The notes under the pieces were generated by a model. It did no database searches. It saw only the letters and a program-made list of their open reading frames with translations, and was not told where the DNA came from. Positions 145-4,772 of a DNA stretch of 36,534 nucleotides are shown here, in pieces. The position numbers and the translations under genes are program-made. Source of the stretch: Candidatus Thalassarchaeum betae. GTDB lineage: Archaea > Thermoplasmatota > Poseidoniia > Poseidoniales > Thalassarchaeaceae. The stretch spans positions 1 through 36,534 of the forward strand of contig PSPG01000014.1 of NCBI GenBank assembly GCA_003193925.1, given 5' to 3'. The stretch's first letter is position 1. Each line of letters opens with the position of its first letter.

Positions 145-378
145 CTACTCTTCAGAGGCCGAATCGGTACCCTGTTCGGGCGGAGAATCCTTCTTCCCTC
201 GGGAATCGGCCCGCCAGATGCCAGCGGCCACCAGCAGGAAGAAGCTGAAGCCCACGATCCAAGCCTCTCTGACCCCAAACATCTCCATCGAGGTGAAACT
301 GAGTCCGATTGTGCATACAATCCAGACGACACCGATGAACAGGAAAATCTTCGCATCATCTCCCTTGTCGTCAGCCAT
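145..378 (-). CDS. Small two-helix membrane protein of the oxidase cluster
   Basis: This 77-residue protein has two hydrophobic helices (about residues 10-29 and 37-53) and a charged, Ser/Glu-rich C-terminal tail. It starts 15 bases after the stop of the heme-copper subunit I gene, behind a strong purine-rich ribosome site (GGGAGGGGAGG), so it is the last gene of that operon. Family knowledge: B-type oxidases often carry tiny extra subunits (the T. thermophilus ba3 enzyme has one with a single helix). By position this is inferred to be an accessory subunit or assembly factor. I recognise no sequence family, so function is inference only. Confidence 0.7.
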   Translation of the reverse strand: MADDKGDDAKIFLFIGVVWIVCTIGLSFTSMEMFGVREAWIVGFSFFLLVAAGIWRADSRGKKDSPPEQGTDSASEE

Positions 379-393
379 CCTCTCCCCTCCCGT

Positions 394-2070
394 TCATCCC
401 GGCAAATCTCCAACCATTGAGAATGTCAACCAAGTGAGCGCGAACAACGCCGCGAGCGCGACGAACATCACGATCGTGGCCGTGGGCGCCTTGACAGCCC
501 CCGGCTCGGCGGGTTCCCATCGTACAGTGGGCAGGTTGGCAGTCACCTCGCCGACTCCTGCCTCCTCGCCAGACCGCAAGGTGCGGACGAGCCCGTACAC
601 GAACAGCAGCAGAACGATGGCCATGATGATTCCACCGAGGCCGACGAGCGCATTCAGAAGGGGAATCGAAGCGTGCAAGTCGTACTCCGGCGCCAGCGTC
701 CGCCGAGCCGAGCCGAGGTATCCGGCGGCGATGCCCGAGACGCCGAACAGGTAAACTCCGACGGTGAGCGCCCAGGGCAGTTGAGCCATCAGTTTCGGGT
801 TCCACAGCTGCCTGCCGTAGAGGATGGGGATGACGTACATCAGCAGCCCGATGAAGGTGAGCGTGATAGTGCCCACGGTGAAGAAGTGGAAGTAGGCCGG
901 GATTGCGAAGGTGTCCGACAGCAGAGCGGCGAATTTCACCTGTATGAGGATGTTTGCAAGCACTCCACCGGCGGCGGCACAGACGCAGGCGGCCGCAATC
1001 GAGGAGAAGGCGGGGTTGCCCCACGGCAGGTCGCGCATCCAGGCGAACAGCCCCTGTCTTCCTTCGCTGACCCGCGCACTCGCTTCGAGGGAGACCAGGA
1101 TGATGACGAACACCATGATCGTCGGGATGCTGATGAACATGGCGAGTGTCGAGGCGACCGTCTTCATCAGCGCGGAGATGGTCGGGTCGAGGAACATGTG
1201 GTAGAGGAAGGTCGGGGGGAGGACGACTAGGTAGAAGGAAAAGAAGACCTTCGACAATCGATCGCTGAAGATGCTCTTCACACCGGTAGTGACCTCCGCC
1301 AGAGCATACCAGACCAACACCGTGGACAGCAGAGGCAAGTAGTGCATGTTGTGGAACATCACGTGATAGGCAATCATGTAGTCGAAGTCCATCGGCCCAC
1401 CGCCTTCCAAGGCCCACAAGGCAGTCCTGCCGAACACATTCAGCGCGGCGAATGAGGTGACGGTGAGCAGGGCCGCCCAGAGCGTCGCGGCGAAGGTGAT
1501 GGAGGACCAGCTCTCGACCTTGCCGTCCAACTTCGCTTTGATGGGAGTCGCGATGCAAGGAATCGAGACGCACAACAGACCGAGTCCGAGCAGGACGTAG
1601 CCGACGTAGAACCAGTCAGCACCCGGCATCCCATCAGACAGCGGGGCGAGTCCGGTGTAGGTGATGACCGCTCCCATCCAAGGTGCGATCTGGTCGATCA
1701 GGAAACCGGCTGACATCAGGCCGAACCCTACCCACGCCAAGTTGCGCCAGACCAGCTCGTCGACACCATCGGTGTAGACGAGCACGAACACCATCACCAC
1801 AGCAACCTGCACGAAGTAGAGCCAGTAGTAGAATACCGTGGTTCCATGCAGAGTGAGAATCGTGTAGGCTAGGGTTGACTCGAGGGAGAGGAAACCCCCC
1901 TTGACCAACACGAGCAGCAAAGCGTAGAGGACTCCAAGCCCAAGAGTGAAGATGCTGACGAGCACGAAAGCCTTCAGCAACCGCCTGTCCCCCTCTGCCA
2001 GACTTGACAGCGAAGCCTCGAACCGCCCCGAAGCATGCTCAATGGTGGATTCGTCACCTTGTTCCGCCAT
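394..2070 (-). CDS. B-type heme-copper oxidase subunit I homologue with altered active-site ligands
   Basis: This 558-residue polytopic membrane protein is collinear with the ba3-type (B family) oxidase subunit I; the stretch GLFAWMRDLPWGNPAF is very close to the Thermus protein. In the family, helix II and helix X His ligate the low-spin heme, a second helix X His ligates the high-spin heme, and three His bind CuB. Seen here: low-spin ligands are present (H75 in LHGTT; H395 in YFHFF), and helix VI keeps H240 and the cross-link Tyr Y244 (FHNMHY). The double His of helix VII reads Y290-H291 (FLYHMFLDP), and the high-spin heme His reads Y393. Extra His occur at 236 and 243. It overlaps no gene and sits between subunit II and a small membrane protein. 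Either it is a reductase with an unusual site, or it is catalytically changed. The family assignment is firm; the activity is unknown. Confidence 0.9.
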   Translation of the reverse strand: MAEQGDESTIEHASGRFEASLSSLAEGDRRLLKAFVLVSIFTLGLGVLYALLLVLVKGGFLSLESTLAYTILTLHGTTVFYYWLYFVQVAVVMVFVLVYTDGVDELVWRNLAWVGFGLMSAGFLIDQIAPWMGAVITYTGLAPLSDGMPGADWFYVGYVLLGLGLLCVSIPCIATPIKAKLDGKVESWSSITFAATLWAALLTVTSFAALNVFGRTALWALEGGGPMDFDYMIAYHVMFHNMHYLPLLSTVLVWYALAEVTTGVKSIFSDRLSKVFFSFYLVVLPPTFLYHMFLDPTISALMKTVASTLAMFISIPTIMVFVIILVSLEASARVSEGRQGLFAWMRDLPWGNPAFSSIAAACVCAAAGGVLANILIQVKFAALLSDTFAIPAYFHFFTVGTITLTFIGLLMYVIPILYGRQLWNPKLMAQLPWALTVGVYLFGVSGIAAGYLGSARRTLAPEYDLHASIPLLNALVGLGGIIMAIVLLLFVYGLVRTLRSGEEAGVGEVTANLPTVRWEPAEPGAVKAPTATIVMFVALAALFALTWLTFSMVGDLPG

Positions 2071-2086: not shown

Positions 2087-2632
2087 TCACACAACGACAA
2101 TCTTGCCGCTCATGCCGTTATGCTGCTCCCCGCAGTAGTAACTGCAGTACAGCGTGTACTCTCCCGGCTCGTCGAATGTCAGTCTCTGTTCGATCACTAC
2201 TCCTGGAATGAGCCTGACCATCTGGCTGCCGGAGTCGGTGCTGACCGAGGCGCCATGGTAGACGTCCATCGTCATCATCCTGAACTGATACTCGACGCCG
2301 GCTTCCAGTTGAATCTCAGCAGGTGAGTATCCCCATTGGTAGGCGGCGAGGTAGACCGGATTCATCGACATCCGCTCCCCGCCCATTACCATCCAGCCAG
2401 GGTCAGGCGCCACCACGATGCCGGCGTCCGCATCCCAGTTGTTCTCTTCGAAGAGAATGGTGATTGCCATGAACTGACCAGCAGACATCTCACTGGGGCC
2501 TCCGTGCCCGGCGTGGGCATCGCCAGCACCCTCTTCTGCGGTGTAGGCGCCGCCCAGAGACCAAGGGATGATGAGCAGGAGCAGTGAGAGGCTGGTCAGG
2601 ACCGCGCCCAGCGGCTCACTCGAACGATTCAT
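2087..2632 (-). CDS. Heme-copper oxidase subunit II with CuA site
   Basis: This is a 181-residue protein with one N-terminal membrane helix (about residues 9-29) and an exported cupredoxin domain. The dinuclear CuA ligand set is complete: H126 (DVYHGAS), then C163, C167, H171 and M174 in CSYYCGEQHNGM. Tyr165 sits where A-type enzymes have the carbonyl-donating Glu, and B-type enzymes also vary there. In the family this domain accepts electrons from cytochrome c or a blue-copper protein and passes them to heme in subunit I. It lies 16 bases upstream of subunit I and 22 bases downstream of a secreted cupredoxin, which is the obvious candidate donor. Its intact CuA site contrasts with the altered catalytic site of its partner. 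Confidence 0.92.
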   Translation of the reverse strand: MNRSSEPLGAVLTSLSLLLLIIPWSLGGAYTAEEGAGDAHAGHGGPSEMSAGQFMAITILFEENNWDADAGIVVAPDPGWMVMGGERMSMNPVYLAAYQWGYSPAEIQLEAGVEYQFRMMTMDVYHGASVSTDSGSQMVRLIPGVVIEQRLTFDEPGEYTLYCSYYCGEQHNGMSGKIVVV

Positions 2633-2654: not shown

Positions 2655-3179
2655 TCACCGCTCCTTGCGGGTGGCGACGATGGAGGCTGCTGTGATTGCC
2701 GCGACGGCCAACCCGAAGGCGAAGCCGGGAATCCCATCATCCTGCGTGTGTTCGTCGTGCATGTCACCACTCATGTCCATCTGGGTGGCTGTGTGGACGG
2801 CGGAATCGTTGTTCACCCAGGTGACTGTGACACCGGGTTGGATCTTCACCGTGCTCGGTTGGTAGCTGAAGCCGTCGATGTAGATGGTGACGTCGTCAGC
2901 GCGGGCATCAGAGTCGTCGGAGACGTTCACCCAGCCGGTGAAGTCGGGGAAGCCTTCGTGAGGCGGGTGCGGAGTGCAGGAGTACATGTCATTCGACGCC
3001 ATCGTGAAGGTGTGTGACCAACTCTCATTCTGAGCCAGTTCTCCGCTGTCCCACAACTCCATCTCTTTCGCGCTTGCCGAAGGCAAGAGGAACATGAGGG
3101 GTAAGAGCAGCATCAGGGCGGCCCCTAACCGCACAGTAGTTCGGGTTTTGTTCTCACCTGATTTTCTTGATTTATTCAT
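2655..3179 (-). CDS. Secreted cupredoxin with swapped halves and a PGF-CTERM-like anchor
   Basis: From the ATG at 3179 this is 174 residues. It has a signal peptide (to about residue 37, SASAK), a cupredoxin-like domain, a Met/His-rich stretch (MDMSGDMHDEH) and a tail IPGF plus one helix plus RKER, which matches the PGF-CTERM archaeosortase signal layout. The domain order is unusual. The C-terminal half of a cupredoxin (SGELAQNESWSHTFT, then MYSCTPHP with C68 and H71) comes first. The N-terminal half (FSYQPSTVKIQPGVTVTWVNNDSAVHT with H129) follows. The usual Met ligand is not evident; H74 is nearby. It probably donates electrons to CuA of the next gene. A longer TTG start at 3215 is rejected because a TATA-like box at 3221-3230 places transcription start inside that extension. 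Confidence 0.85.
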   Translation of the reverse strand: MNKSRKSGENKTRTTVRLGAALMLLLPLMFLLPSASAKEMELWDSGELAQNESWSHTFTMASNDMYSCTPHPPHEGFPDFTGWVNVSDDSDARADDVTIYIDGFSYQPSTVKIQPGVTVTWVNNDSAVHTATQMDMSGDMHDEHTQDDGIPGFAFGLAVAAITAASIVATRKER

Positions 3180-3220
3180 CTCAGCACTCGCCCTGACCAA
3201 TCCCCGGTATTCCAATGGTT

Positions 3221-3293: not shown

Positions 3294-4772
3294 CTAGTGT
3301 CCTGACCTCCTCGAGCCGGGGCCCACTCGCATCGCTATAGCGCCTGCAACGAGAGAGAGCAATCCCATTGAGAGGGACCAACCCGGCAGCCCCTGATCCG
3401 CCTTGCCAACTTCGAGGAACACCACAGAGCGTTCGGTCTCGGAGAGCAGCCGCTCGGGCGTTCCGTCGACCAGCAGTGGCCGAAAGCGCCCCTCCAACTC
3501 GACAGAGATGTTCCCGCTGTACAGCGGCCGCACGGTGAACTCCAGCGTAGTCGAGTTGTTGGCGCCCAACTCGGCTACCTCCACCCAATCGGGTGACGCC
3601 TTGAAACCCTCCTCCTTCAACCAGAAGGTCCCGTTGACGAGCGGTCCGAAGCCGGTGTTGTTCAATTCGAGGGAGAGGGTGAAGGACTCGCCGCTGACGA
3701 TCTTGGCGGGATGGCTGCTCGCTTCGAGCACGGGATGGGCACCGAAGAGAGGGTAGTTGCTCATCATGTACAACGAGCCGATGAAGGCGGCGGTGAGTCG
3801 TGACTGCTTTTCCTCTACCGAGATCATCCCCCACTGCTCATTGTCTACCTCGACGGTCACTGAGGGCATCCCGAGCGAGTATCCGTAGTCGAGCGAGGTC
3901 CCCTTGGCGATGTACAGCTCAGTCGCGGCCGGCCCGGCCCTGAGTCCGGTGAGCTCAGTCAACTCCTGCTCCAGGCGGGTGTACATCTCGATGTCCGGCG
4001 TGGCTGATTCGGTGTATCCCCACGGCGTCAGGAACCAGAGTGTGCCGGTGTGCATCGATATGTAGAGACGGAAGTCATGCGACTCAAACACCTCCACGTT
4101 GGCAGCCACCTCGGGCTCGCTCGCAGCCGAGCTTCCGGCACCGTCCCATTCGAAGGGATAGTTGCGGTTGAGGTCGACCCCGTTGGAGTTGGCCCGCGTG
4201 TCGCGGGTGTTGCCGTCGACATTGACCATCGGGAAGATGAAGATGTCGTGGCTGTCGACGAATTCCTTGACCCATGGGTCGTCTTCGTACTCGGTCACTA
4301 GGTAGTCGAGCAGCAGCACCGCCACCTCCATCCCGAGTTGCTCGTTGCCGTGGTGCCCCCCATCGATGTGGATCTGCGGTTTGGGTGTCGGGTCGGAGAG
4401 GTTGGTGACCTGCGCCAGCAGCAACTTGCCGTAATCGTTGAACGGATCCAGCTCAGCGTCGACGCTGTGCCCGATTGTCGAGAGGCGCATGATTTCCGAG
4501 TGGTCCTGCTGCAGCGCCTCCATGTGCTCGCGCAGGTCCCAGTAGTGGTAGTACACCTGGTCGTAGATCTCGTCGCGGATTTCCTGACGCAGCCACTCGC
4601 TCGCCCTGTCAGAAACCTCCGGCCCCCACTCGACCTCGGGGCTCCCCTCGACTCTGTTCCAGCCGTCGGCACCGTCTGCCTCAACTGGCTCCTGTGCTGC
4701 GCTGGAATCGAAACAACCGGCCAGTGGCGTCAATAACAAGAAAAAAGCAACCAGAAGGTGCTTGTGTTTCAC
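3294..4772 (-). CDS. M14 zinc carboxypeptidase, lipoprotein
   Basis: This is a 492-residue exported peptidase. The signal peptide ends in a lipobox-like LAGC with Cys20, so a lipid anchor is likely. The M14 catalytic set is visible: zinc ligands H141 and E144 (GGHHGNE), substrate-binding NRNY near 202-205, third zinc ligand H241 (SMHTG) and catalytic E308 (TVEVD). A beta-rich region of about 100 residues follows (about 350-450), then LPGW plus a hydrophobic helix and basic end, a weak match to a PGF-type tail. The family removes C-terminal residues from peptides, here presumably outside the cell. The gene stands alone: it ends about 115 bases before the cupredoxin ATG and its upstream neighbour is divergent. 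Having both a lipobox and a C-terminal anchor is odd. Confidence 0.92.
   Translation of the reverse strand: MKHKHLLVAFFLLLTPLAGCFDSSAAQEPVEADGADGWNRVEGSPEVEWGPEVSDRASEWLRQEIRDEIYDQVYYHYWDLREHMEALQQDHSEIMRLSTIGHSVDAELDPFNDYGKLLLAQVTNLSDPTPKPQIHIDGGHHGNEQLGMEVAVLLLDYLVTEYEDDPWVKEFVDSHDIFIFPMVNVDGNTRDTRANSNGVDLNRNYPFEWDGAGSSAASEPEVAANVEVFESHDFRLYISMHTGTLWFLTPWGYTESATPDIEMYTRLEQELTELTGLRAGPAATELYIAKGTSLDYGYSLGMPSVTVEVDNEQWGMISVEEKQSRLTAAFIGSLYMMSNYPLFGAHPVLEASSHPAKIVSGESFTLSLELNNTGFGPLVNGTFWLKEEGFKASPDWVEVAELGANNSTTLEFTVRPLYSGNISVELEGRFRPLLVDGTPERLLSETERSVVFLEVGKADQGLPGWSLSMGLLSLVAGAIAMRVGPGSRRSGH

Follow-up and report, generated by a model that had tools for sequence, protein, structure and literature searches.

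Six His define the heme-copper oxidases (HCOs); in the NO reductases of the superfamily the cross-link Tyr is replaced by Glu, Gln, Asp or Asn, and in some NO reductase types one of the His of CuB or FeB is an Asp as well (PMC3475470; PMC8756737). eNOR is marked by Gln at the position of the cross-link Tyr, and gNOR has Asp there (PMC8756737). The sNOR and bNOR types (CuANOR; Bacillus azotoformans, Nitrosomonas) keep the His sextet and have Asn for the cross-link Tyr (PMC3475470; PMC8756737). The window analysed here comprises 36,534 nucleotides of contig PSPG01000014.1 of Candidatus Thalassarchaeum betae. At 394-2070 on the minus strand it encodes a subunit I of 558 aa, which is a B-type HCO according to Pfam, the alignment to ba3 and a fold search, and in which Tyr replaces one of the CuB His and the His of the high-spin heme.

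Identity and fold of the subunit I

The open reading frame runs from ATG to TGA without interruption, and its product matches the Pfam COX1 family with 125 bits. The closest solved relative in sequence searches is the ba3 subunit I of Thermus thermophilus (E about 1e-24), and the same enzyme is ranked first when the fold model is searched with Foldseek (TM 0.72 to 3s8f_A). The preliminary description had aligned the protein with ba3-type subunits I, and the HMMER mapping and Foldseek agree on this. VIA-align gives Z values of 28-30 against many HCOs. The predicted structure has the HCO fold with 12 or more helices, as is characteristic of the superfamily. The mean pLDDT of the model is 66, and residues 283-294 and 377-391 are below 50; the model is of middling confidence only, and its pocket geometry is putative.

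Residues of the active site

Residues were mapped by aligning the protein onto T. thermophilus ba3 with HMMER, and the agreement of this alignment with that of MAFFT makes a misalignment of the ligand positions unlikely. All codons given here are on the minus strand. Both low-spin heme His are kept, namely H75 (1846-1848; ba3 H72) and H395 (886-888; ba3 H386). The helix VI motif HVMFHNMHY (1339-1365) contains the CuB ligand H240 (ba3 H233), Y244 at the position of the cross-link Tyr (ba3 Y237), and two extra His beside the site, H236 (ba3 W229) and H243 (ba3 V236). These four residues are invariant in all 10 members of the clade described below. The Tyr four residues after the helix VI His is thus present, and its covalent link is putative. 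In helix VII the first CuB His (ba3 H282) is replaced by Y290 (1201-1203), followed by the kept H291 (1198-1200; ba3 H283). The proximal His of the high-spin heme (ba3 H384) is replaced by Y393 (892-894), and Ser S385 stands at another pocket His, ba3 H376. The earlier assignments (H75, H395, H240 and Y244 kept, Tyr-His at 290-291, Tyr at 393) are correct in every residue, and the codon of Y393 reads TAC as had been reported; that of Y290 is TAC as well. Of the three His that hold CuB and the one that holds heme a3 in ba3-type enzymes, the protein therefore has H233 and H283, and H282 and H384 are Tyr. Four residues of the His sextet, the signature of the HCOs, are kept, and Y290 and Y393 take the place of the other two in all members.

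Homologues with the same replacements

Nine homologues with 39-46% identity carry identical His-to-Tyr changes, seven of them from gammaproteobacterial MAGs and two from Azospirillum megaplasmids. The former (43-46% identity) were found in a scan of 84,980 species genomes; in the plasmid collection three records of Azospirillum megaplasmids matched (43%), and residues were read in two of them. The motifs WH[VI]LFHN[ML]HY, LYHMFL[DE]P and SDTFxxPxYFHF are present in all nine sequences read, and none of the sequences compared had one of the two Tyr without the other. Because the homologues have been sequenced separately, and two of them are on complete Azospirillum plasmid records, the Tyr codons are not a sequencing error. 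The statement that the gene is intact and not a pseudogene holds, given the uninterrupted reading frame, the nine homologues, and dN/dS values of 0.10-0.16 among close relatives.

H236, H243, Y290, S385 and Y393 are shared by all 10 members, which belong to three lineages, and occur in none of the 43 other HCOs of the tree set. In the residue comparison, which comprises 50 sequences (seven rows of the clade and 43 other HCOs), the corresponding changes in ba3 numbering, W229 to His, V236 to His, H282 to Tyr, H376 to Ser and H384 to Tyr, are found in 7/7 and 0/43 rows, respectively. D/N372 is Ala in the clade and also in one other row. The earlier idea that the extra His 236 and 243 take part in the site has gained support from this distribution. 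The K-path of the B-family, which we take to consist of Y244, Y248, S261, T312 and T315 (ba3 numbering), retains Y248 alone throughout the clade (as Y255): Y244 is replaced by Val, S261 is Gly or Ser, T312 is Val or Ala, and T315 is Ile. The propionate Arg pair R456/R457 is kept.

The clade is under strong purifying selection, and the invariant positions amount to 29 of 38 in the active-site segments versus 116 of 428 elsewhere. It could be imagined that the high-spin heme has been lost and that the protein reduces no small molecule at all, being a CuA/heme b conduit or a sensor of redox state or copper whose pocket is filled by Tyr. Such a protein could do without the heme ligand H384, the pocket residue H376 and most of the K-path, all of which are lost, and the location of the Azospirillum copy among putative metal-handling genes would suit it as well. 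However, conservation is highest in the segments that formerly made up the active site, the two invariant His that were gained would be superfluous in a dead pocket, and the Arg pair that holds the heme propionates is still there. We regard a conduit or sensor as unlikely, although it is the least unlikely of the alternatives considered here.

Phylogenetic position

In the maximum-likelihood tree the Tyr-type sequences are monophyletic (100/100) on a long stem of 2.39. Their sister group (100/97) consists of Gln-type, eNOR-like HCOs with GHSSQQ or GHGAQQ in helix VI. The length of the stem calls for caution with this placement, and the tree program flagged that long branches meet here. Topologies that group the clade with the ba3-type enzymes or put it outside all others were rejected (AU p 0.014 each). 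Gln-type HCO genes on Thermus plasmids adjoin Rrf2 and DUF542 genes, neighbours that fit NO as a substrate of these HCOs.

The Gln-type HCOs from T. thermophilus plasmids (L022 2386-4068; L023 2311-3996) have Lys (VGHFK) at the low-spin heme His, ba3 H386. As read from the alignment, this is a second natural change of a heme ligand in HCOs.

The operon and its surroundings in the archaeon

An operon of a CuA subunit, the Tyr-type subunit I and a small membrane protein is common to all three lineages. In the archaeon subunit II is encoded at 2087-2632 (minus strand) and has T. thermophilus ba3 subunit 2 as its best PDB match. The preliminary description had placed subunit I in an operon with an intact CuA subunit, and indeed the CuA site (HGAS...CSYYCGEQHNGM) is complete, with H126, C163, C167, H171 and M174 all present; the ligands are invariant in the seven subunits II compared. 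The third gene (145-378, minus strand) encodes a two-helix membrane protein of 77 aa. Genes in the corresponding position follow that of subunit I in the gammaproteobacteria, where they are duplicated, and in Azospirillum. The archaeal protein and that of a gammaproteobacterial locus (L011) match with a BLASTP E of 3e-4 in a two-sequence comparison; the Azospirillum counterpart was matched by position and appearance only.

A secreted cupredoxin-like protein with a PGF-CTERM anchor is encoded at 2655-3215, on the same minus strand and 22 bases upstream of subunit II, and is the probable electron donor to CuA. This cupredoxin seems to be circularly permuted with respect to amicyanin: residues 61-88, in its N-terminal half, match amicyanin 73-100 in the C-terminal part with the Cu loop, and residues 109-143, in its C-terminal half, match amicyanin 21-55 in the N-terminal part. 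Its Cu loop reads CTPHPPH; the last ligand of amicyanin is Met.

The operon is located at the end of a contig of a 1.48 Mb MAG and was not found in 12 genomes of the same genus. In 20 relatives nothing matches the adjoining M14 carboxypeptidase (3294-4772, minus strand) at more than about 41% identity, and therefore the initial 4.8 kb of the contig appear to be accessory. These circumstances might be taken as signs of a chimeric assembly, just as the Tyr codons might be attributed to sequence error or to a decaying pseudogene. However, the codon usage of the subunit I gene fits that of the other genes on the contig (r 0.95), the archaeal PGF-CTERM cupredoxin and aIF-2 are on the same contig, and nine other sequences with the same changes, together with the low dN/dS of the relatives, exclude error and pseudogene. 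Explanations of this kind are effectively refuted. An ordinary A-type HCO is encoded separately, on another contig of the archaeal MAG.

Distribution and host genomes

The Tyr-type subunit I is found in one of 292 genomes of the archaeon's order, the archaeon itself, and no relatives besides its own gene were found in 292 genomes of its phylum or among the 12 genomes of its genus. In the order of the gammaproteobacterial hosts, 7 of 109 genomes encode it. Even draws of 398 Pseudomonadota and of 369 Gammaproteobacteria each yielded nothing except the already known gammaproteobacterium G060, and the viral contigs contained no relative. Since the clade is rare and patchy, horizontal transfer looks likely.

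Every host genome checked also encodes an ordinary oxidase. The gammaproteobacterial hosts have a cbb3-type (7/7) and an A-type (6/7) oxidase, and none has a NOR-type HCO besides the Tyr-type protein. A copper nitrite reductase (NirK) is encoded by five of these seven versus 10 of 102 order-mates; the five are closely related and are not independent points. NirK was not found in the archaeon. Upstream of the cluster in the two gammaproteobacterial genomes examined are genes for a multi-heme c protein, a Tat-type 4Fe-4S protein and an NrfD-like membrane protein; together these resemble a pathway that supplies cytochrome with electrons from quinone. NO-response genes were not seen adjoining the operons.

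An association with NosZ was considered and dropped: full-length NosZ occurs in one of eight host genomes, and most of the other matches are the CuA domains of the Tyr-type operon itself. Beside the operon and divergent from it, the gammaproteobacteria have a conserved gene for a lipoprotein-like BNR-repeat protein with a CDCCQP motif (L008 3987-5258 and L010 3986-5233, with counterparts in L005, L009 and L011). On an Azospirillum plasmid (L012 1-13840) the genes around the operon were judged by eye to be putative metal-handling genes, with a heavy-metal RND pump, a Met-rich Spy-like protein, an HMA-domain protein and a DUF305-like protein.

Possible function

Our main reading, to which we assign a probability of about 0.45 together with its mechanism, is that the clade is a branch of the B-type HCOs which is functional and conserved and whose pocket has been rebuilt in one coordinated way. 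The enzyme would be a membrane reductase fed through CuA, in which the non-heme metal site has been relocated and the high-spin heme is either ligated by Tyr or lost; it would not be a canonical proton-pumping O2 reductase. Electrons would pass from the cupredoxin to CuA, then to the low-spin heme b and the rebuilt pocket; the CuA site and the bis-His low-spin site are evident from the residues. Two His were gained near the two that were lost, which points to a non-heme metal (Cu or Fe) still being held, presumably by H240, H291 and H236 with H243 and Y290 nearby. Opposite this metal there may be a high-spin heme with Y393 as its proximal, tyrosinate ligand, or the heme may be absent. A small oxidant would be reduced in this pocket, probably by a chemistry different from that of the O2-consuming relatives.

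The leading candidate for this oxidant is NO, and the support for it is weak. NO is favoured by the sister relation to the eNOR-like HCOs, by the loss of the K-path, in which T312 and T315 have given way to apolar residues, and by the NirK of the gammaproteobacterial hosts. Counting against NO, the known NO reductases replace the cross-link Tyr, which is invariant in the Tyr clade, the archaeon is without NirK, and no NO-response genes adjoin the operons. In addition, an anionic Tyr ligand makes a heme hard to reduce. A Tyr-ligated heme would thus be hard to reduce from CuA, which speaks against the chemistry of a ferrous heme with either NO or O2.

A heme that cannot be reduced by electrons at the cytochrome level would be chemically consistent with a membrane peroxide reductase, in which a tyrosinate-ligated ferric heme meets H2O2 in a catalase-like manner and is re-reduced via CuA and heme b. 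The proximal Tyr and the His and Asn opposite to it (H240, N241 and H243) are all invariant, as such an enzyme would have them. However, there is no catalase-like Arg beside the Tyr in the sequence, and no peroxide-stress genes were seen near the operons. This purely inferential proposal appears to us less probable than a conduit or sensor.

It is harder still to imagine an enzyme that reduces O2 at an unusual yet functional binuclear site and serves as an extra terminal oxidase, and of the functions discussed we consider this one the least probable. The invariant cross-link Tyr Y244, the invariant CuA and the B-type fold would be expected of such an oxidase. However, the proximal His and one CuB His are lost, T312 is replaced by Val or Ala and T315 by Ile, and the hosts already have ordinary oxidases. 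With the separate A-type HCO of the archaeon and the ordinary HCOs of the gammaproteobacteria, the Tyr-type enzyme is not the sole oxidase in these hosts.

Going beyond a rebuilt reductase, the clade could represent a new catalytic class of the heme-copper superfamily. Its pocket would then hold either a high-spin heme with a natural tyrosinate ligand, opposite a relocated metal bound by His, or a Cu site without heme, formed by H240, H291, H236 and Tyr, and its reaction would have no known precedent in the superfamily. We hold this stronger proposal somewhat more tentatively than the main reading.

Comparison with known oxidases and NO reductases

The invariant Y244 decides against assigning the clade to any of the compared NO reductase types: Gln, which is present in the sister clade, would be expected for eNOR, Asn for sNOR and bNOR (CuANOR), Glu for cNOR and qNOR, and Asp for gNOR. 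No description of Tyr at a heme or CuB His was found in the full-text literature searched. Murali et al. 2024 reportedly propose eNOR, sNOR, gNOR and nNOR. The earlier remark that the pattern is unfamiliar among NO reductases fits the published descriptions of the types compared here. The Tyr-type clade is apparently undescribed, but its novelty is not certain, and the chief doubt is that it may be the same as nNOR.

In this clade, which is present in archaea and in two proteobacterial classes, Tyr has replaced two of the six His that serve as the signature of the HCOs, and two other His have been gained in a coordinated way. Such a clade would be evidence that evolution can rebuild the binuclear centre, and it is a natural case in which the need for the proximal His and for the third CuB His can be tested. 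It is also a warning that annotation as cytochrome c oxidase from profiles alone can miscount respiratory capacity.

The Tyr-type enzyme resembles T. thermophilus ba3 (1xme/3s8f) in its fold and sequence, the CuA subunit II, the low-spin His pair, the helix VI CuB His, the second helix VII His, the cross-link Tyr position and the propionate Arg pair. It differs from ba3 in having Tyr at H282 and H384, His at W229 and V236, and Ser at H376; in the archaeal protein Val stands at T312 and Ile at T315. With the Gln-type HCOs (Thermomicrobium roseum, L014; Defluviimonas, L015) it shares the sister relation, Val at ba3 Y244 and a similar length. However, the Gln-type HCOs keep all CuB and heme His, apart from the low-spin Lys of the Thermus pair, and have Gln-Gln at positions 243-244, where the Tyr clade has His-Tyr. 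Like bNOR/CuANOR and sNOR, the Tyr-type protein is a B-related HCO fed by CuA. As far as these enzymes have been described, the clade is set apart from them by retaining the Tyr and by losing two His of the sextet.
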